DNA of 64,000 nt from assembly GCA_016786495.1 (NCBI GenBank), contig JAEUUJ010000050.1, positions 94,937-158,936 of the forward strand, written 5' to 3'. Positions 1 through 7,120 of the stretch are shown here, piece by piece (position 1 is the stretch's first letter; the number at the start of each line of letters is the position of its first letter). A model generated the notes under the pieces. It was not told where the DNA came from and did not search any database. It worked only from the letters and a program-made list of their open reading frames with translations. The DNA is from Cyclobacteriaceae bacterium (lineage in GTDB: Bacteria; Bacteroidota; Bacteroidia; Cytophagales; Cyclobacteriaceae). Both the position numbers and the translations under genes were made by a program.

Positions 1-2470
1 TGCTGCGACCGGCATTGTCACGAACGTATACACCTTTTCCATCCGGTGTGAAGTGAACGTTTTCAATGGAATTCGTGAAACCGTACACTTTCTTCGGAGT
101 TGATACATTTTTCAGGTCGTACACATTGATGAAGTTATTTTGTTCATCCGGTGTGTATAATCCGGCAGCAACCAAAACCGTTTCTGACGGATTTACGTCC
201 ATGGAATACACCTGGTAGTTCGGATTGCCGAGTTTATCCACCAGCACTTCAGCCGGCCATTGACCATTAACGTGTTTCCACTTAATGATTTTGCCATCGC
301 TGCCACCGGAGTAGATGTTATCATCCTTCGCAAGGGTGATCAACGCGCGTGCTGCGCCCAGCTCATGACCGATGAGACTCTTCGTAAGCCCATGGTCGCG
401 CGTTCGCAGTGCGGCCAGCAGCCCGTTGTAGATATCATCATCATACTCTTCACCTTCATACTTGGTGTTGAACTGATAAGCCTGTTGTGCCAGCAGCGAT
501 TGTAACTCAGGTTCACTGCTTAACTCTTTCGACTTAAGCGCCATCGCCTTTGCCTGTGACAGGTAGCTTCTTCGTGTAGCGTCCGCCCGAGCGATGTTAG
601 CCTGCCTTTCGTTTTCCTTGGCCTGCAACTCATTCGATTTTGCAATTTTCGCGTTTTGTTCAGCAAAACCTTTTTGCTTAAGCGCTTCAGCCTCCTGCTT
701 CTTGGCTTCTGCCTCACTCAAAATCGCCAATTGCTTCTGGCGGTCAGCCTCTTCCTTTGCTGCCACGGCAGCAATTCTTTGTCTGTCGGCTTCCTCTTTA
801 GCTGCAACGGCAGCAATTCTTTGCTTATCAGCTTCTACGCGCAGCTTATCAGATTCAACTCGCCTTTCTTCAGCAAGCTTAAAGTTCCTGTCCGCTTCGA
901 GTTTCTGCACGAACGCGTAAATCAGAAAGAGAATGGAAATGATTGTTGCGGTAGCAAGTACGAGCGCAGTTCTTCTCGCGCGCTGAAGCTTGCGCTTCTG
1001 CTCGAGTTCCTTGATGCGCTGCTCGGTTTCGAATTCTTTCTTCGAATATTCGAGGAACACCAGCGTACGTTCGAATGCAGGATGGTATCGTTGACCCCAA
1101 ACCAACGTGGGCTTGTGTTTCGCCTGCCAGTTCAATGCCAATTGCAGATCCGGTGGCCTCCAAAGTCCGGCCTTGCCTACCTGATACATGGAGGCGGCTT
1201 CCGCCAGGCGGATATACATCTGCACGGCTTCTGCTTCATCGTCAACCCAGTTCTTCAAGCGTACCCAGATACGCATCAAACTTTCGTGCGAGATATCGAC
1301 CATTGATTTCGATGAAATCGGAGTACCGAACGCTGGAGTCAACAACGATCTGCCCGGCTCCCGGAACTTTTCAATAACCTCTGTTACCTCTTCTTCTGAG
1401 CAATCGGCAATCGCTGCAATCTCGTTCAAACGTGTCGGACGTCTGATACCGAAGTTCTCACCGCGCTTCTCGGTAATGGCTTTAAACAGAATTTCGCAAA
1501 TGCGTTTCTGATCATCGGTCAGTTCATCGAAGGCTTCGTTCGCGTGCATCGACAACGCTTCCGCCATCGTACCGATCGCTTCGTAGTGCTTTAAGTCAAC
1601 CTGCTCTTCTTCATAATCGCGGTATAACGACCAGTAGCTCCAGGTACGCATCAATGCGTGCTGCAGAATTGGAAGCTGATCCGGGTTGTCACCCAGGTCG
1701 TTTAACAACTGCTGCACAAGACGCGGGGTAATTTTAGCTCCACCTACGGCCACCGGTCCTTCAATGGCTCTGCGTTTTTGTTCGCGCGTCAACTGCGGGA
1801 TCAGGTAGTGGCTATCGTTAATCTTTCGGGTTAGTTCGGGGAACTGTGCGCAATCTCCGATAAAATCGGAACGCATGGTGATTGCTACATAAATCGGAGA
1901 GTCAGGATAATTGATTGCTTCGATCAGCAGGTTAACGAAGGCCAGCGTCTCGTTAACGGAGTTTGGATCGGTGCTGTCTTTAAAGCGGAACAATTCCTCA
2001 AACTGGTCGACCAGGATCAGGTAGTTTACATCGCCTGATCTGCGTGATTGCTCCACAGCTTCCACCAGCCCTAAGGAACTGCTTCGCAACAAAGTCGAGA
2101 AGATGGTGCGTTTGATTTTTTTCTCTTCCGGATCGGCATCCAGGTATTCTTTGTTGTTTTTCAACAACGACTCCGCCAGGTTGTCGATCGGCCCTGCACC
2201 GGGGCGGGTTACTACAACCTCCCAGTTAGGACTCGCATCGGTGAGGAAGCCACCGTACAGAATCGGCAGTACGCCGCAATAAATGAATGAAGATTTACCG
2301 CTACCGCTGGGTCCGATAACACCTACGAACCGGCTTTTCGAAAGCTTGAGAAGAACCTCATCGCTTTGTCCTTCGCGCCCGAAGAACAAGTGGCTCTCTT
2401 CAATTTTAAACGGACGTAACCCGGGGAAGGGGTTTAAGGTCGATACCTTTTCGTCAACTTGCTGTGCCAT
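1..2470 (-). CDS. STAND-type NTPase with membrane helix, coiled coil and WD40 repeats (3' end outside window)
   Basis: This gene is open from an ATG at 2470 to the left edge, so about 823 residues are visible and the C-terminus is missing. Residues 13-31 carry the NPFPGLRPF...LFFGRE signature typical of bacterial novel-STAND (nSTAND1) NTPases. A P-loop GPSGSGKS lies at 53-60 and a Walker B segment LILVDQFEEL at 151-160. After the NTPase and winged-helix-like part there is one membrane helix near 495-515, then a charged Ala/Glu/Lys/Gln coiled coil that contains a 14-residue tandem repeat (ADRQRIAAVAAKEE). The visible C-terminal part resembles WD40 blades (GSDGKIIKWK; VYVRD). Family knowledge: STAND proteins act as ligand-triggered molecular switches, with WD40 as sensor and the NTPase as oligomerising module. 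It starts 4 nt after the triple-TIR gene and is surely co-transcribed with it. The ligand and output are unknown. Confidence 0.9.
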   Translation of the reverse strand, partial: MAQQVDEKVSTLNPFPGLRPFKIEESHLFFGREGQSDEVLLKLSKSRFVGVIGPSGSGKSSFIYCGVLPILYGGFLTDASPNWEVVVTRPGAGPIDNLAESLLKNNKEYLDADPEEKKIKRTIFSTLLRSSSLGLVEAVEQSRRSGDVNYLILVDQFEELFRFKDSTDPNSVNETLAFVNLLIEAINYPDSPIYVAITMRSDFIGDCAQFPELTRKINDSHYLIPQLTREQKRRAIEGPVAVGGAKITPRLVQQLLNDLGDNPDQLPILQHALMRTWSYWSLYRDYEEEQVDLKHYEAIGTMAEALSMHANEAFDELTDDQKRICEILFKAITEKRGENFGIRRPTRLNEIAAIADCSEEEVTEVIEKFREPGRSLLTPAFGTPISSKSMVDISHESLMRIWVRLKNWVDDEAEAVQMYIRLAEAASMYQVGKAGLWRPPDLQLALNWQAKHKPTLVWGQRYHPAFERTLVFLEYSKKEFETEQRIKELEQKRKLQRARRTALVLATATIISILFLIYAFVQKLEADRNFKLAEERRVESDKLRVEADKQRIAAVAAKEEADRQRIAAVAAKEEADRQKQLAILSEAEAKKQEAEALKQKGFAEQNAKIAKSNELQAKENERQANIARADATRRSYLSQAKAMALKSKELSSEPELQSLLAQQAYQFNTKYEGEEYDDDIYNGLLAALRTRDHGLTKSLIGHELGAARALITLAKDDNIYSGGSDGKIIKWKHVNGQWPAEVLVDKLGNPNYQVYSMDVNPSETVLVAAGLYTPDEQNNFINVYDLKNVSTPKKVYGFTNSIENVHFTPDGKGVYVRDNAGRS
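740..840 (-). repeat. Short in-gene tandem repeat in the coiled coil of the STAND protein
   Basis: Two near-identical copies of a unit of about 42 bp encode the repeated ADRQRIAAVAAKEE heptad-like segment. The core ACGGCAGCAATTCTTTG (plus strand) occurs twice, near 767 and 809. The repeat preserves the frame and probably varies the length of the coiled coil between the membrane helix and the WD40 part. Confidence 0.6.
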
Positions 2471-2474
2471 AATG

Positions 2475-3917
2475 TTACGCGTTAAATTCTGCTAATAAAG
2501 ACTTAATCGATTTTTCTGAATCGCGGAGATCGCTTTCCACGATCCGTACGTTCTGATTTTTAAATGCATCGAGGTTAATGGCTGCACCGGGTGTGGTGAA
2601 TACCGCCTTTCCTTTGATTGGTTTTTTTCTTCCAAAGCCGGGAGCTTTCAACAGGTCGAGCACTTTCATGCGTACCCACTGATCGTTCACTTTGCCTTTG
2701 TAGATGATCGCTGCATCGAAGTTTCTGAGGTTCTCAATATGCTTCTGACGCAAGTCGAGCAGTTCACCTTCAAATTCAGGAATCAATACGTTGTAACCTG
2801 CTTTTTGAATCGCTTCAATCAGTGGTTTCACATCGTTGTGATCCACGCGGTCGTGTACCAGGTAAATCGATTTGCCACCGGTGTCTTCCAATACACGTTT
2901 TTCGTGCGTATCGAGAAGTTCTTCCCGAACAATATTCTTGAAATCTTCCAGTGGTGTCTGTAAAATTTCAGCGCCTTCCTGGGCATCGGTATCGCGCTTG
3001 ATGTTATCGATGAATGCCTTCTGACGTTCGCTTGCGTTGTTGAGGGTGGGAGAGATCCAAATGAGGCGTGAGAACTGATCTTTTCCAACCTTCTGACTTT
3101 TCTCTGCGGCAAACTTGTTTTGCAGATCAACAATCGAGCGATCCGCACCATCCGGAATTTCACCGTATGCACTTCCGATCAGGTGAATGGAGAGACTTGC
3201 ATCTTCAATGTCTCTGCGTACAATTTTTTCGAGATCGCTCGCAAAGCCAGGCAGCGTTTGATTCGGCAGTACGATGTATCCATGCCGCTGAAGCTCGCGC
3301 TTGATAATGTTCCGCTGAACAGAAAGATCATGTCCTGTTTCCGCGAGGTAAATCGTTTTACGCTTGTAAATGTTCTTAACCTCGGATTTCGATGCGCCAT
3401 CCCGGAGCAGCACCAGCGTGTCGAAAATATCGTATGCCAGATCGACCATCTTCATCCAGTACTGGCGTTCCGCTTCGTTGCTGAAGTAGTCGGCATATTC
3501 GCGTACCTCGCCCGATTCAGTATCGAGTTGGTACATCTCGTACCCAATCAGTTCGCGCAGGCGCGGAGGTTGTTCCATGACTGACAGCGGAGCTTTGAAA
3601 ACCTTGAACACGCGATTGCGCGTTTTACCGGAAGCTTCCGTGGCTTTGAAAAATGCTTCGAGGTTATCAAGCGATTGTCCTGACTTGATGAAATCCTGCG
3701 ACAGCAACGTCACCGCCACTGCAGCATTGTCGAGTTTGGGCGAAGCCATGTTATCGAACTCACTCTTGAGCAGGATTCTTGGTTTCTCGCCCAGAACCTG
3801 CGTGAGCATAAGCTCCAGAAAACGCTTGAACTGAGTTACCCAACCGGCTTGTCCGCCCGGGGCTTTTTCATTGTCGCGGTCAGCAAATAATACAAGTACG
3901 TCTACTTCAAAATTCAT
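2475..3917 (-). CDS. Protein with three consecutive TIR-like domains
   Basis: This 480-residue soluble protein has no signal peptide. I see three alpha/beta units that each begin with a hydrophobic strand followed by an acidic or polar loop. Unit 1 (about 5-150) starts VDVLVLFADRD and contains a W...F...L pattern like effector TIR domains. Unit 2 (about 190-330) starts KTIYLAETGHD. Unit 3 (about 345-475) starts KSIYLVHDRVDHND and contains NLRNFDAAIIYKGK and a W-R-K-L spacing. That pattern is typical of the TIR/DUF4062-like domain that accompanies STAND ATPases. TIR domains in bacteria are often NAD+-consuming enzymes or homotypic adaptors. I cannot assign a catalytic glutamate with certainty, so activity is not claimed. 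The gene lies 11 nt downstream of the transporter-HEAT gene and 4 nt upstream of the STAND gene. The operon arrangement suggests that it transmits the STAND signal. Confidence 0.75.
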   Translation of the reverse strand: MNFEVDVLVLFADRDNEKAPGGQAGWVTQFKRFLELMLTQVLGEKPRILLKSEFDNMASPKLDNAAVAVTLLSQDFIKSGQSLDNLEAFFKATEASGKTRNRVFKVFKAPLSVMEQPPRLRELIGYEMYQLDTESGEVREYADYFSNEAERQYWMKMVDLAYDIFDTLVLLRDGASKSEVKNIYKRKTIYLAETGHDLSVQRNIIKRELQRHGYIVLPNQTLPGFASDLEKIVRRDIEDASLSIHLIGSAYGEIPDGADRSIVDLQNKFAAEKSQKVGKDQFSRLIWISPTLNNASERQKAFIDNIKRDTDAQEGAEILQTPLEDFKNIVREELLDTHEKRVLEDTGGKSIYLVHDRVDHNDVKPLIEAIQKAGYNVLIPEFEGELLDLRQKHIENLRNFDAAIIYKGKVNDQWVRMKVLDLLKAPGFGRKKPIKGKAVFTTPGAAINLDAFKNQNVRIVESDLRDSEKSIKSLLAEFNA

Positions 3918-3928
3918 TCTTTCTAGGG

Positions 3929-6900
3929 TTATAGTTCAGTGGTCAGCACGTTTGCTTTCGCCTGGGTGCTGGTAATATTCTTAATAAGTCCTTCAACAAG
4001 TTCGTGATGGTTGGCCATCACGAAATAGAAATCGGCCAGATTGATTTTAAATACAATCGACCGTTGGGTAGCCTCAATGCTCTTGGCCGGTACGGCCAGA
4101 CCATTCTGGAAAATGTCGCCATATACACTGCCGGCCTTAAGCGATTTGATTACGGTAGCATCATCTTTCAGGATAATTTCTCCGAGTGCTACGATAATGA
4201 TTGGCATACCTTGTTCTTTTGCATCGAAGGTTAGTTTTTGACCTTCATTCAGATCGATCGGTGAAATCTTGTCGAACAAGTCGGCCAGCAACACACCGTT
4301 GATGTTTTTGAACTCGGGAAGCTGCTTGAGGAACAGCACCATTTCAATACCGAGGAAGAAACCATCATCCAGGCCGTCCAGCAGTTGGTTATTCTCGATG
4401 GATGAATCGAGGAATTTTTTGTCGCGCACCGGCAGACGTTCGGAGATAACTTTATAGAAGTTTTTGTCTTTGTTATAGATCACCCATGCGGCAGTTTCCT
4501 GAAGCATTTTGTCCTGGTTGAACATCTGTGCGATCAAACCACGGCTCACGCGGAAATCTTTCAGGTAAGCCGATACGTACACCGCACATACTTTCGTCCA
4601 GCGGTTGTTCATGTTGAAGTCACGGTTCAGGATATAGTTGATTACCTGAATCGGATTGTAGCTTTCGCGCGGGAAATAAATCTGCAGCTGCTCAAGCTTC
4701 TGTTCTACCGGAATGTCATCGAAGAGCGGGAACAACTTCGGCTTAAGATCTTTCTCTACGAACAAATCCATCAATTCAAGCGCGTAGGCCACACCGTTCG
4801 GATCTCCCGATTCAATGTTCTCCCGCACCAGCTGCACGGCTTCCGGATCGTACAAAATCGAAAGCAACATGGTGATGTGATCGAAGTTCGAACGAATCTC
4901 TTCCCGGATCGCATCGCGCAGCAATGCATATTCCGCTTCGTCCGGCAACTCGCTGAGGGCAGCTAGGTTCCAGATGGTTTTGCCAAGTTCGGTTTCCAGG
5001 AGTTCTGTCACTTCCTGTGCCTGACGACCGGTTGCCCGGTAGTTGATGTATCGCAAGGAATACAGAATCTGCTTTACGATACGTTTATCCGGATAATCGG
5101 CTTTCTTCCAGAGAAGCGCGAGGGCGTCATCGCCACCGATACGGCCCATGATCTGAACAATGCGAAGCATGACCAGATCGGTTTGACCCGATTTGTGAAA
5201 GGATGCCTCCAATACAGGCAATGCAGCGGGACCGGCTTCAATCAGCGCAGCTGCTGCATCGTGACCATACGTAGGCGAGGAGAGAAGTTCCACTAATACC
5301 GACCAGGTTTCCGGCCGTTTTACTTTACGCGCGGTAATCAGCGCTTCGTGACGAACGTGTACGCTTACGTCACGCAATAATTCCAGCAGAATAAAGATGG
5401 TACGCTGGCTGATGAGTTTACGCAAAAGTTTTGCGGCAAGAATACGATCGGCCGGTTTTACAGACTTGCTGAGTTTCATCAGCTTGTCGGGCGAAATCGA
5501 CAGCAAGTCACTGTCTTCGGCTTCACCTTGTGCGCTTTTCGCCAGATTACGGATCTCCGGATTTTTGATGGTTTCTTTGTCGATTCCCAGCTCCTGAATC
5601 TTCTCAACGGCAAACGATTTTACTTTTGTGTACTCGCTTTCGGTAAGACGGATCACCGCGTTTTCAAAAAGTGTTGGTTCCAGTTTCTCCATCAGCTTCA
5701 GGCCGTAGATCACCTTATCTTCGGCTGTGCTGTTGATTTCTTTTTCAAGCACTTTGTCGACTGTGTATTCGCGGTCGATTTTGTGATCGACTTTGGCTTT
5801 ATTCTTAATGAGTGTTGTTTGCAGTGTTTCGCGGTAGATTCCGTACAGCTTGCCTGCAACAAAGTACCAGGCCACAATCAACGGGATGGCAAACACGGTC
5901 ATGTAGATCAAATCGACCAGATTAAATTTTTGGATCCCCAGGATTAATGCACCCGCTACGAGCGTGGCAAAACCCGTAACCACACCTTCCAGCTTGGTTT
6001 GCACATCAATCTTGATATTGGTTTCAATCGGGAGCAGGTAGAGCTTGAACGAAGGTTCGTCAAGTGATTCTTTTACCGACAACACAAACAGCTTGCTCAT
6101 CGCGATCATGATAAAGAATATGATAAACGATGAACTGGCGGTGGTGTAACCGAATGAAAGACCGATGGTAAGGGCAACTATGGTAAAAATGCCAATCAGG
6201 ATGGGGTTAACCAGTACTGAAGTTTTCAAACCGTAGTCAGCAATCACGCGGTCGGCTGCGAATGTTTGGAACAAAAAGCTGAAGATCACAACCGTTGCCT
6301 CAAAGTATGAAAGGAACTTGGGCAGGGCACCCGGCTTGTCGCGGAAGAATTCGGTTGACGCATTCAGAAACGAATAATCCACGAATGTCAGCGCCACCAT
6401 CGAAGCGATGATGAAGAGCGACAAAAACAATACGTATTTGTTTTTAAAGAATGAAACGGTGGAAAGTTTTTGGTTGAACTGCTTTTCGCTTTTCAGCGAC
6501 CAGCTCTCATCCGCAAAACGGCTGGAGAGAACAATAAACAGGATCGTAAAAATGATGATACCGAACAGACTGATTGTGAACAGATCTTTTACCCCGATAT
6601 AGTCAAGCAAGATCGGAATGGTGAAGAAGGAGATCAACGAGGCAAGCAACGCACCCTGGTCAACACTTCCCAACAAGCGTTTCGACTGCTTTACGTTAAA
6701 GAGACGGTTAAACGTTCCCCAGAAAACCAGCAAAACAACAAGCGTAAAGGGCGCGATCTGGGCGTAAGAGAAGAACCGGAGATAGAGGTCATCCATCGCT
6801 ACATATTCATGGCCAAACTCAATGAAGGCGGCAATAATCGTGATGGTGATTAAGCTCAGGATGGCCAGCAGGCGAAACGGGATGCGGTTTTGAAGGAAAT

Positions 6901-7120
6901 TGTACGTGAGGGTCGCAAAGAGGCCGAAAATTCCCGATAATACGAAAGCTTCCGGTAACCTTTGGCTTCCATTGTGAATGCCCAGAAACTGGGTTTGTGC
7001 GGCTACGCTAAACGTTGCCAGAAAGGCTCCCATGAAGAAGCTCATAATCAGCAACAACCCTACGCGACCGGTCTCGCCCTCCTCAACAGAGAAGACCTTT
7101 TTGAGTAGACTTTCTTTCAT
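3929..7120 (-). CDS. Nucleotide-transporter-like (Npt/Tlc-type) membrane protein fused to HEAT repeats and a cyclic-nucleotide-binding-like domain
   Basis: This protein has 1063 residues. Residues 1 to about 430 are a polytopic membrane domain with roughly ten to twelve helices, starting MKESLLKKVFSVEEGETGRV. It resembles the ATP/ADP-translocase-like (Npt1/Npt2, Tlc) branch of the major facilitator fold found in many Bacteroidota. Residues of about 480-850 are rich in HEAT-like helical pairs (for example VHVRHEALITARKVKRPETW). Residues of about 940-1050 look like a cNMP-binding beta-roll (LFDKISPIDLNEGQKL, then LGEIILKD, then AGSVYGDIF), but the phosphate-binding cassette is not canonical. 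It is the first gene of an operon with the triple-TIR protein and the STAND NTPase. Family assignment rests on architecture and pattern. Whether it transports nucleotides is unknown. Confidence 0.75.
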   Translation of the reverse strand: MKESLLKKVFSVEEGETGRVGLLLIMSFFMGAFLATFSVAAQTQFLGIHNGSQRLPEAFVLSGIFGLFATLTYNFLQNRIPFRLLAILSLITITIIAAFIEFGHEYVAMDDLYLRFFSYAQIAPFTLVVLLVFWGTFNRLFNVKQSKRLLGSVDQGALLASLISFFTIPILLDYIGVKDLFTISLFGIIIFTILFIVLSSRFADESWSLKSEKQFNQKLSTVSFFKNKYVLFLSLFIIASMVALTFVDYSFLNASTEFFRDKPGALPKFLSYFEATVVIFSFLFQTFAADRVIADYGLKTSVLVNPILIGIFTIVALTIGLSFGYTTASSSFIIFFIMIAMSKLFVLSVKESLDEPSFKLYLLPIETNIKIDVQTKLEGVVTGFATLVAGALILGIQKFNLVDLIYMTVFAIPLIVAWYFVAGKLYGIYRETLQTTLIKNKAKVDHKIDREYTVDKVLEKEINSTAEDKVIYGLKLMEKLEPTLFENAVIRLTESEYTKVKSFAVEKIQELGIDKETIKNPEIRNLAKSAQGEAEDSDLLSISPDKLMKLSKSVKPADRILAAKLLRKLISQRTIFILLELLRDVSVHVRHEALITARKVKRPETWSVLVELLSSPTYGHDAAAALIEAGPAALPVLEASFHKSGQTDLVMLRIVQIMGRIGGDDALALLWKKADYPDKRIVKQILYSLRYINYRATGRQAQEVTELLETELGKTIWNLAALSELPDEAEYALLRDAIREEIRSNFDHITMLLSILYDPEAVQLVRENIESGDPNGVAYALELMDLFVEKDLKPKLFPLFDDIPVEQKLEQLQIYFPRESYNPIQVINYILNRDFNMNNRWTKVCAVYVSAYLKDFRVSRGLIAQMFNQDKMLQETAAWVIYNKDKNFYKVISERLPVRDKKFLDSSIENNQLLDGLDDGFFLGIEMVLFLKQLPEFKNINGVLLADLFDKISPIDLNEGQKLTFDAKEQGMPIIIVALGEIILKDDATVIKSLKAGSVYGDIFQNGLAVPAKSIEATQRSIVFKINLADFYFVMANHHELVEGLIKNITSTQAKANVLTTEL

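Follow-up and report, generated by a model that had tools for sequence, protein, structure and literature searches.

The stretch of DNA analysed here, called the window, comprises 64,000 nucleotides from a Cyclobacteriaceae bacterium with a genome of 4.0 Mb (G000:C62:94937-158936). At its start lie three minus-strand open reading frames (ORFs): 7120-3929 (1063 aa), 3917-2475 (480 aa) and one running from 2470 past the window start. A preliminary description had presented them as adjacent genes with gaps of 11 nt (genes 1 and 2) and 4 nt (genes 2 and 3), and the same ORFs and gaps were recovered. Its reading of them as a three-gene operon is right about the adjacency but incomplete, as the window edge cuts through a cluster of six genes, of which these three form the first half. 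In the fetched flanking sequence, gene 3 continues past this edge to a full length of 1060 aa and is followed by three further genes on the same strand, with gaps of -4, -4 and 32 nt. The complete order is an NTT-HEAT protein with a cyclic-nucleotide-binding domain (cNBD), a triple TIR/NDT-fold protein, an nSTAND1 protein with a transmembrane (TM) helix, coiled coil and WD40 propeller, an outer-membrane (OM) barrel, a propeller lipoprotein, and a giant protein of the type IX secretion system (T9SS). The inner parts of this cluster (NTT-HEAT-cNBD, TIR and nSTAND1) conflict in their history with the outer parts, and we consider it somewhat more probable than not that the whole forms a trans-envelope system for recognition and signalling whose ectodomain can be exchanged. 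The features are listed below, with window positions unless another sequence is named.

3929..7120, minus strand: gene 1, NTT-HEAT-cNBD-like protein, 1063 aa (ORF list, Pfam, family profile)
5831..7120, minus strand: NTT (Tlc/Npt-type) membrane domain, residues ~1-430, 12 hydrophobic segments (family profile, hydropathy)
4361..5800, minus strand: HEAT-repeat region, residues ~441-920 (PF13646 at residues 545-625)
3929..4360, minus strand: cyclic-nucleotide-binding-like roll, residues ~921-1063 (family profile matches cNBD structures)
2475..3917, minus strand: gene 2, triple TIR/NDT-fold protein, 480 aa (ORF list, fold prediction)
3402..3914, minus strand: TIR unit 1, residues 2-172, Asn85 at the catalytic-Glu column
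2916..3359, minus strand: TIR-like unit 2, DUF4062-type, residues 187-334, Gln266 at the Glu column
2478..2876, minus strand: TIR-like unit 3, residues 348-480, invariant Lys418 at the Glu column
1..2470 and on to G000:C62:94224 (L003:9225), minus strand: gene 3, nSTAND1-TM-coiled coil-WD40 protein, 823 of 1060 aa in the window
1181..2431, minus strand: nSTAND1 NTPase, residues 14-430, predicted cytoplasmic (PF20703, E 9.8e-96)
Residues 53-60 of gene 3, minus strand: Walker A motif GPSGSGKS, intact as read from the sequence
908..964, minus strand: single TM helix, residues 503-521, positive side N-terminal (hydropathy, charge)
401..898, minus strand: A/E/K/R/Q-rich coiled-coil-like segment, residues 525-690, predicted periplasmic (composition)
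1..400, minus strand: start of the WD40 propeller, residues 691-1060 with the rest beyond the window, predicted periplasmic (Pfam WD40)
L003:9228-8134, same strand as gene 3: OM barrel, 364 aa, PF13568 (OMP_b-brl_2)
L003:8137-6797, same strand as gene 3: propeller lipoprotein, 446 aa, without Pfam family
L077:16764-9628, same strand as gene 3: T9SS giant, 2378 aa, with PKD domains

The Tlc/Npt-like transporter, HEAT repeats and cyclic-nucleotide-binding-like roll proposed earlier for gene 1 are all recovered, the HEAT part in the protein's own sequence and the other two through its family profile. HEAT_2 (PF13646) occurs in all 41 family members, the window copy included. The profile matches solved NTT carriers within positions 11-428 (9j3j, E 5.1e-22; 9j3n, E 8.7e-22, over profile positions 110-427) and cNMP-binding domains at about 920-1060, and a hydropathy scan of the whole protein gave 14 segments, two of them in the C-terminal part. 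Pfam TLC matched 4/41 members, the window copy not among them; cNMP_binding (PF00027) matched 28/41, with no match in the window copy taken alone, and the cNBD assignment holds at the level of the family. Published work is compared here as far as the passages drawn on from each paper describe it. NTT-HEAT-cNBD fusions are reported to be widely distributed, with an unknown interplay of their domains (Major et al. 2017, PMC5381601); the domain order is identical to that of gene 1, and the passages drawn on describe no tie of these fusions to STAND, TIR, outer-membrane or T9SS genes.

For gene 2, the AlphaFold model (mean pLDDT 80.6, pTM 0.58) comprises three TIR/NDT-type units, in agreement with the three consecutive TIR-like units noted before. 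The nearest folds of units 2 and 3 are of the DNPH1/NDT type, in fold lists (VIA, Foldseek) from which the absence of a fold does not rule it out, and unit 2 narrowly passes the DUF4062 model (25.2 bits against a cut-off of 24.7). None of 116 homologues has a TM segment. At the columns assigned to the catalytic glutamate, the window protein has N85, Q266 and K418, and glutamate stands there in 7/27, 2/27 and 0/27 homologues for units 1, 2 and 3, with Gln in the other 25 homologues for unit 2. The column was placed by profile alignment to SNC1/TLR6 in unit 1 and by a single weak DUF4062 alignment (5.1 bits) in unit 2; in unit 3 we take it to follow the WxxxE pattern. The expectation that this TIR protein consumes NAD+ is not borne out at these columns, though a neighbouring glutamate in unit 1, E87 (15/27 homologues), would allow another register, and further acidic columns (D/E264, E272) lie near the assigned positions. 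The protein may be a scaffold, probably non-catalytic, or a nucleotide-binding adaptor.

Gene 3 is, as previously described, a membrane-attached STAND NTPase with WD40 repeats. Exactly one TM helix is found at residues 440-560 in 108/110 homologues, and eight of the 110 have an additional hydrophobic segment elsewhere. The mean net charge is +3.9 before the helix and -0.1 after it; hydropathy and charge together predict a cytosolic nSTAND1 domain and a periplasmic coil and WD40 propeller. The coil region (474-685) also has a weak match to TolA (20.7 bits against a cut-off of 213).

The three outer genes point to the cell envelope. The giant at the window locus ends in a type A sorting tail (TIGR04183, E 1.6e-10; PF18962, E 2.6e-12), which is present in 12 of 14 complete giants and missing from L144 and from L054, whose "giant" is a histidine kinase. 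The four giants that were scanned have domains of the kind usual in adhesins (PKD, fn3 or Ig). The propeller fold of the lipoprotein was predicted from a homologue that is 80% identical (L105), and the similarity of the barrel to PorT/SprT is weak (22.1 bits against a cut-off of 125). Because the cluster includes outer-membrane, lipoprotein and type IX-secreted genes, a sensor at the cell surface is likely. The PorP/SprF-type anchoring of T9SS cargo (PMC9143113, PMC12618676) likewise has an OM barrel gene beside a giant cargo gene; unlike it, as far as those passages go, the tail here is of type A, the barrel belongs to OMP_b-brl_2 and the STAND half is extra.

The gene order is conserved well beyond this genome. 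Scanning a genome collection with 11 TIR homologues yielded 166 relatives, of which the best 80 were kept; at least four of these loci (L108, L147, L161, L163) are contigs also obtained by the genome search. Most are labelled Cyclobacteriaceae, Flammeovirgaceae, Fulvivirga, Chryseolinea and similar groups (Chryseolinea and Fulvivirga being Cytophagales), some Bacteroidetes bacterium, and one each uncultured Bacteroides and Chitinophaga. Among these best 80 of 166, same-strand adjacency was found for NTT-TIR in 74/76, TIR-STAND in 76/77, STAND and the barrel outer-membrane protein (OMP) in 69/70, OMP-lipoprotein in 66/66 and lipoprotein-giant in 62/63, where genes too near a contig end are omitted, L115 is missing owing to the ORF caller, and any following gene of at least 800 aa or cut by the contig end is counted as a giant. 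The adjacency noted in the preliminary description is real and ancient. When the survey was centred on NTT instead (42 loci, two from the window's genome and 40 others), the corresponding counts were 25/42, 28/29, 35/35, 32/35 and 28/31, the last including L054.

The TIR protein is far from ubiquitous, as its profile was found in 42 of 194 genomes of the order and in 6/16 of the window's own family. Of the same 194 genomes, 76 have NTT matches of any strength and 54 strong OMP matches; both partners occur in all 42 TIR genomes, and OMP in 44 of the 45 genomes with a strong NTT match. A phylum-wide TIR search, in a sample with few genomes of the window's order, found 12/296 genomes, with full-length matches confined to that order and one genome of another class (G288).

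Several variants of the arrangement were seen. The window's genome holds a second, diverged copy lacking the TIR gene (L004:1-10784, G000:C21), which comprises NTT, STAND, OMP and lipoprotein genes plus another long gene truncated at the end of the contig, and five more TIR-less copies of this type occur in relatives (L057, L058, L059, L062, L064). NTT genes without other cluster genes nearby were found at L049, L065, L068, L069, L072 and L075; in one genus the TIR-STAND-OMP-lipoprotein-giant series stays together (L185, L188, L189) and the NTT gene lies elsewhere in the genome (L069, L065, L068). Three loci have a gene of 650-677 aa between NTT and TIR (L056:13167-15185, L063:4836-6788, L071:4696-6729), which in the two that were scanned, L056 and L063, is a HAMP-SpoIIE phosphatase and suggests an input of the partner-switch type. 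On the other side of NTT, a divergent gene of 700-850 aa occurs in 39 of the 67 loci where the upstream neighbour can be seen; in L108:4123-6570 and L112:4255-6597 it is a TPR-PD40-OmpA gene reminiscent of PorE. Possibly decayed or mis-assembled copies are L144, with a split OMP and a giant without tail, and L056, with a TIR ORF of only 251 aa.

Comparisons between species separate the cluster into two sets. The trees started from 79 loci with five complete genes, from which five duplicates or near-duplicates were removed (leaving 74) and, for the conflict table, a further 17 distant loci (leaving 57). Mean pairwise identity across the 79 loci is 77% for nSTAND1 (residues 1-480), 55% for HEAT, 54% for TIR, 46% for the NTT membrane part and 39% for the cNBD, and on the outer side 42% for the coil, 43% for WD40, 36% for OMP and 27% for the lipoprotein; dropping the five duplicate rows lowers these means by at most about one point (nSTAND1, 76%). 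Identities correlate at 0.89-0.99 among the inner parts and at 0.49-0.73 between these and OMP or lipoprotein. Of 42 strong NTT splits over 57 taxa, TIR contradicts none, nSTAND1 four, coil plus WD40 15, OMP 25 and lipoprotein 26, and the lipoprotein contradicts only 4 of 33 OMP splits. Because of these counts, the inner parts appear to share one history and OMP and lipoprotein to travel together, and the periplasmic part of STAND seems to side sometimes with one half and sometimes with the other. Among 29 pairs of loci with a TIR identity above 85%, OMP falls below 65% in 11.

Individual pairs localize the change. In several sister pairs, alignable DNA breaks off at the start of the coil, directly behind the STAND membrane helix. 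The DNA of L164 and L165 is 92% identical up to about STAND residue 535 and not alignable beyond. For L132/L138 and L137/L138, alignable DNA extends to about STAND residues 521 and 529, respectively, is followed by ~9.7 kb that cannot be aligned (L132/L138 share one 413-bp match at 71% within it), and resumes ~270 bp before the end of the giant gene, continuing past it. This block of L138 aligns at 71-77% with L037, from the window's genus, and its close relative L111, over OMP, lipoprotein and the beginning of the giant. Over its first 400 residues, the L138 giant shares 75% identity with L111 and 25% with its sister L132, but in the secretion tail it shares 88% with L132 and 44% with L037. 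This giant joins a body resembling the donor's to the secretion tail of the resident lineage. For L149/L155 the boundary lies inside OMP, and L123/L184 show divergence without tree conflict.

The trees point to the same exchanges. In approximately unbiased (AU) tests (26 and 24 rows, LG+G4), with groups chosen after the first trees had been seen, the outer data rejected {L164,L165} (p 8.4e-5) and {L132,L137,L138,L139} (p 1.35e-4), and the inner data rejected {L037,L111,L138,L139} (p 7.6e-36) and supported {L164,L165} at 100. Chryseosolibacter histidini PWU4 (L113) and Fulvivirgaceae JP3-4 (L119), neither labelled as a metagenome-assembled genome (MAG), have alignable DNA up to about residue 523; their union is supported at 100 by the inner data and rejected by the outer (p 5.6e-10), and the outer part of L113 groups at 100 with Chryseotalea, in conflict with the inner data, which reject this grouping (p 5.8e-50). 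FastTree local support for outer parts joining other lineages is 99-100; the nested four-row group of L138/L139 with L037/L111 has 90, within a five-row group at 99.

STAND NTPases and TIR domains underlie immunity in animals, plants, fungi and bacteria, and those of bacteria are usually treated as sensors inside the cell. In the system that we somewhat favour, the outer, ligand-facing half would consist of the T9SS surface protein, the OM barrel with its periplasmic N-terminal segment and the propeller lipoprotein. The single-pass STAND protein would bridge this half to the cytoplasm, with WD40 and coil in the periplasm and nSTAND1 in the cytosol, where nSTAND1, the triple TIR/NDT protein and NTT-HEAT-cNBD would act as one conserved output module. 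Contact, or a ligand, at the cell surface would change the WD40-coil part and switch the NTPase, which, through contacts with TIR and HEAT/cNBD, would alter nucleotide transport or elicit another cytoplasmic response. The outer parts would diversify fast and be swapped between lineages, OMP and lipoprotein jointly, together with the giant's body in L138, and the periplasmic STAND part sometimes along with them, a pattern as in self/non-self or arms-race receptors. Since OMP and lipoprotein, and in L138 the giant's body, are exchanged jointly, they may touch one another, and the agreement of their trees suggests the same for nSTAND1, TIR and NTT in a putative physical complex. For the direction of the signal, outside-in recognition is favoured because, in eukaryotic STAND proteins, the C-terminal repeats receive the signal before the protein assembles (PMC7159879, as far as that account goes), and because of the pattern of joint exchange and tree agreement. 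Specificity would then be set by the exchange of alleles, as proposed for TraA of myxobacteria (PMC6372800) and, by another route, for the fungal HNWD receptors (PMC12222747).

Several observations weigh against this proposal. The border between the two sets is not sharp: WD40 identity correlates at 0.83-0.88 with the inner parts, at 0.85 with OMP and at 0.73 with the lipoprotein; coil-plus-WD40 splits are contradicted by NTT in 14/40 cases and by OMP in 13/40; and in the 11 pairs with a replaced OMP, WD40 was replaced in five (47-52%) and kept in six (72-98%). Alignable DNA ends where conserved sequence gives way to variable sequence, and its end by itself is no proof of a junction. Several of the exchange examples are MAGs; chimeric assembly as their cause is made less probable by the pair L113/L119. 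Plain rapid divergence of surface genes is likewise lowered, as the AU tests reject the sister clades and the outer parts join other lineages. Judging by the TIR-less second copy and the genus with NTT elsewhere, neither TIR nor a neighbouring NTT is strictly needed for the outer genes. The model is built on sequence analysis, which shows the genes and their conserved order, the domains, the secretion tail, the conflict between inner and outer trees and the lack of Glu at the assigned columns of the window protein; the topology, read from hydropathy and charge, is inferred, as are the physical complex, the signal direction, the ligand and the output.

The main rival to outside-in recognition is inside-out control of a surface adhesin, which we regard as unlikely though deserving attention. 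NTT-HEAT-cNBD would here read nucleotides, STAND and TIR would form an NTP-driven gate for the display or activity of the giant, and phages, predators or new surfaces selecting adhesins, not receptor function, would drive the outer exchange. The anatomy also fits this, as do the adhesin-type domains of the four scanned giants, the regulatory input suggested by the HAMP-SpoIIE phosphatase in L056 and L063, and the retention of WD40 in six of the 11 pairs; yet other pairs replace the periplasmic STAND part together with OMP and lipoprotein, as would be expected if the contacts along the path have to match, and the receipt of the signal by C-terminal repeats in eukaryotic STAND proteins (PMC7159879, within the passages used) also argues the other way. 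It is improbable that the cluster is a housekeeping accessory of the envelope or of type IX secretion (anchoring, gliding, surface-layer assembly) with no role in recognition. The conserved order, the T9SS cargo, the weak PorT/SprT similarity of the barrel and the divergent neighbours (TPR-PD40-OmpA at two scanned loci, 700-850 aa at 39/67) would suit such a role, but the cluster is patchy within its family, duplicated in the same genome and exchanged in its outer parts.

The preliminary description had proposed a stress or phage sensor in which the HEAT/cNMP part reads nucleotide or NAD+ levels and the TIR/STAND pair acts on them; in the form weighed here, STAND would activate a TIR NADase within the cytoplasm and NTT/cNBD would sense nucleotides, leading to abortive infection. 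The genes, folds and adjacency described earlier stand; NAD+ consumption is not supported, no credible PADLOC match was obtained, and we now consider this reading improbable, although some phage-related role is possible. In its favour, bacterial conflict systems include nSTAND1 and TIR (PMC7159879, PMC10907252, in the parts consulted), DUF4062 TIR-like NADases such as Swarozyc defend against phage (PMC13174449, a preprint, in the portion used), unit 2 is DUF4062-like by its narrow pass, and the glutamate of unit 1 is kept in 7/27 homologues. Unlike the Swarozyc enzymes, as far as described there, unit 2 here mostly has Gln at the Glu column. In PADLOC-DB 2.0.0, the cluster gave only P-loop fragment matches to mad3 (24 and 27 residues of two STAND copies), and no other cluster protein and none of nine flanking proteins matched. 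The plasmid collection gave no full-length relative, only two Caballeronia plasmid matches covering 48% of the query, and the phage collection gave no match. The NADase and abortive-infection reading is lowered by the residues at the Glu columns of the window protein and by these searches, and the conservation of the cluster with OM and secreted genes also speaks against it.

Within trans-envelope recognition, we advance tentatively, as one possible form, a bacterial allorecognition of the NOD-like receptor (NLR) type, in which a STAND/TIR switch would be linked through both membranes to an exchangeable surface cassette, and Cytophagales would use it to distinguish kin from non-kin, or to sense predators or phages touching the surface, and give a nucleotide-based response. 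The component families are known, and the systems compared here do not describe the whole cluster. The nSTAND1 conflict systems (PMC7159879, PMC10907252) share, in the passages drawn on, the nSTAND1 switch, a variable C-terminal sensor and association with TIR, and some have CLec/FGE sensors diversified by retroelements (PMC10907252); here, by contrast, the prediction puts the variable side in the periplasm and outside the cell, and it changes by multi-gene exchange. The HNWD NLRs of Podospora (HET-D, HET-E; PMC12222747) are described as combining a TIR-related effector, a STAND NTPase and a polymorphic WD40 sensor in allorecognition, in one polypeptide with NACHT, with diversity from near-identical WD40 repeats and no envelope parts, whereas the TIR units here are encoded by a separate gene and the NTPase is nSTAND1. 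The myxobacterial kin-recognition receptor TraA (PMC6372800) is similar, by its description, in being a polymorphic surface receptor, in which, according to its authors, alleles of the variable domain have probably been shuffled against the remainder; unlike the cluster here, TraA/B act in outer-membrane exchange. Among the open-access papers searched, none with a title or abstract start describing the whole cluster was found, with subscription papers outside that search. If the proposal is correct, a variable sensor outside the cell that is re-specified by swapping the outer parts would give bacterial recognition a new architecture, and the widespread, uncharacterised NTT-HEAT-cNBD proteins would gain a first functional context. 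The exchange boundary also offers a ready design for chimeras that locate specificity.

Some loci and neighbours lie apart from these questions. Outside the class, L195 (G288:C49) has the TIR-STAND pair followed by two TPR-S genes, one with an alpha/beta hydrolase and one with MAP3K_TRAF_bd, possibly a conflict-system relative of the pair. In a congener, L190 (G078:C1:2178000-2197900) has a TIR gene of another kind (532 aa), after which come two STAND genes of ~1350 aa, and L171 is a TIR gene with no recognised cluster genes beside it. Around the window's cluster, eight of nine flanking proteins have Pfam names, for instance Queuosine_synth (queuosine synthesis), TerC, SRAP and GcpE.

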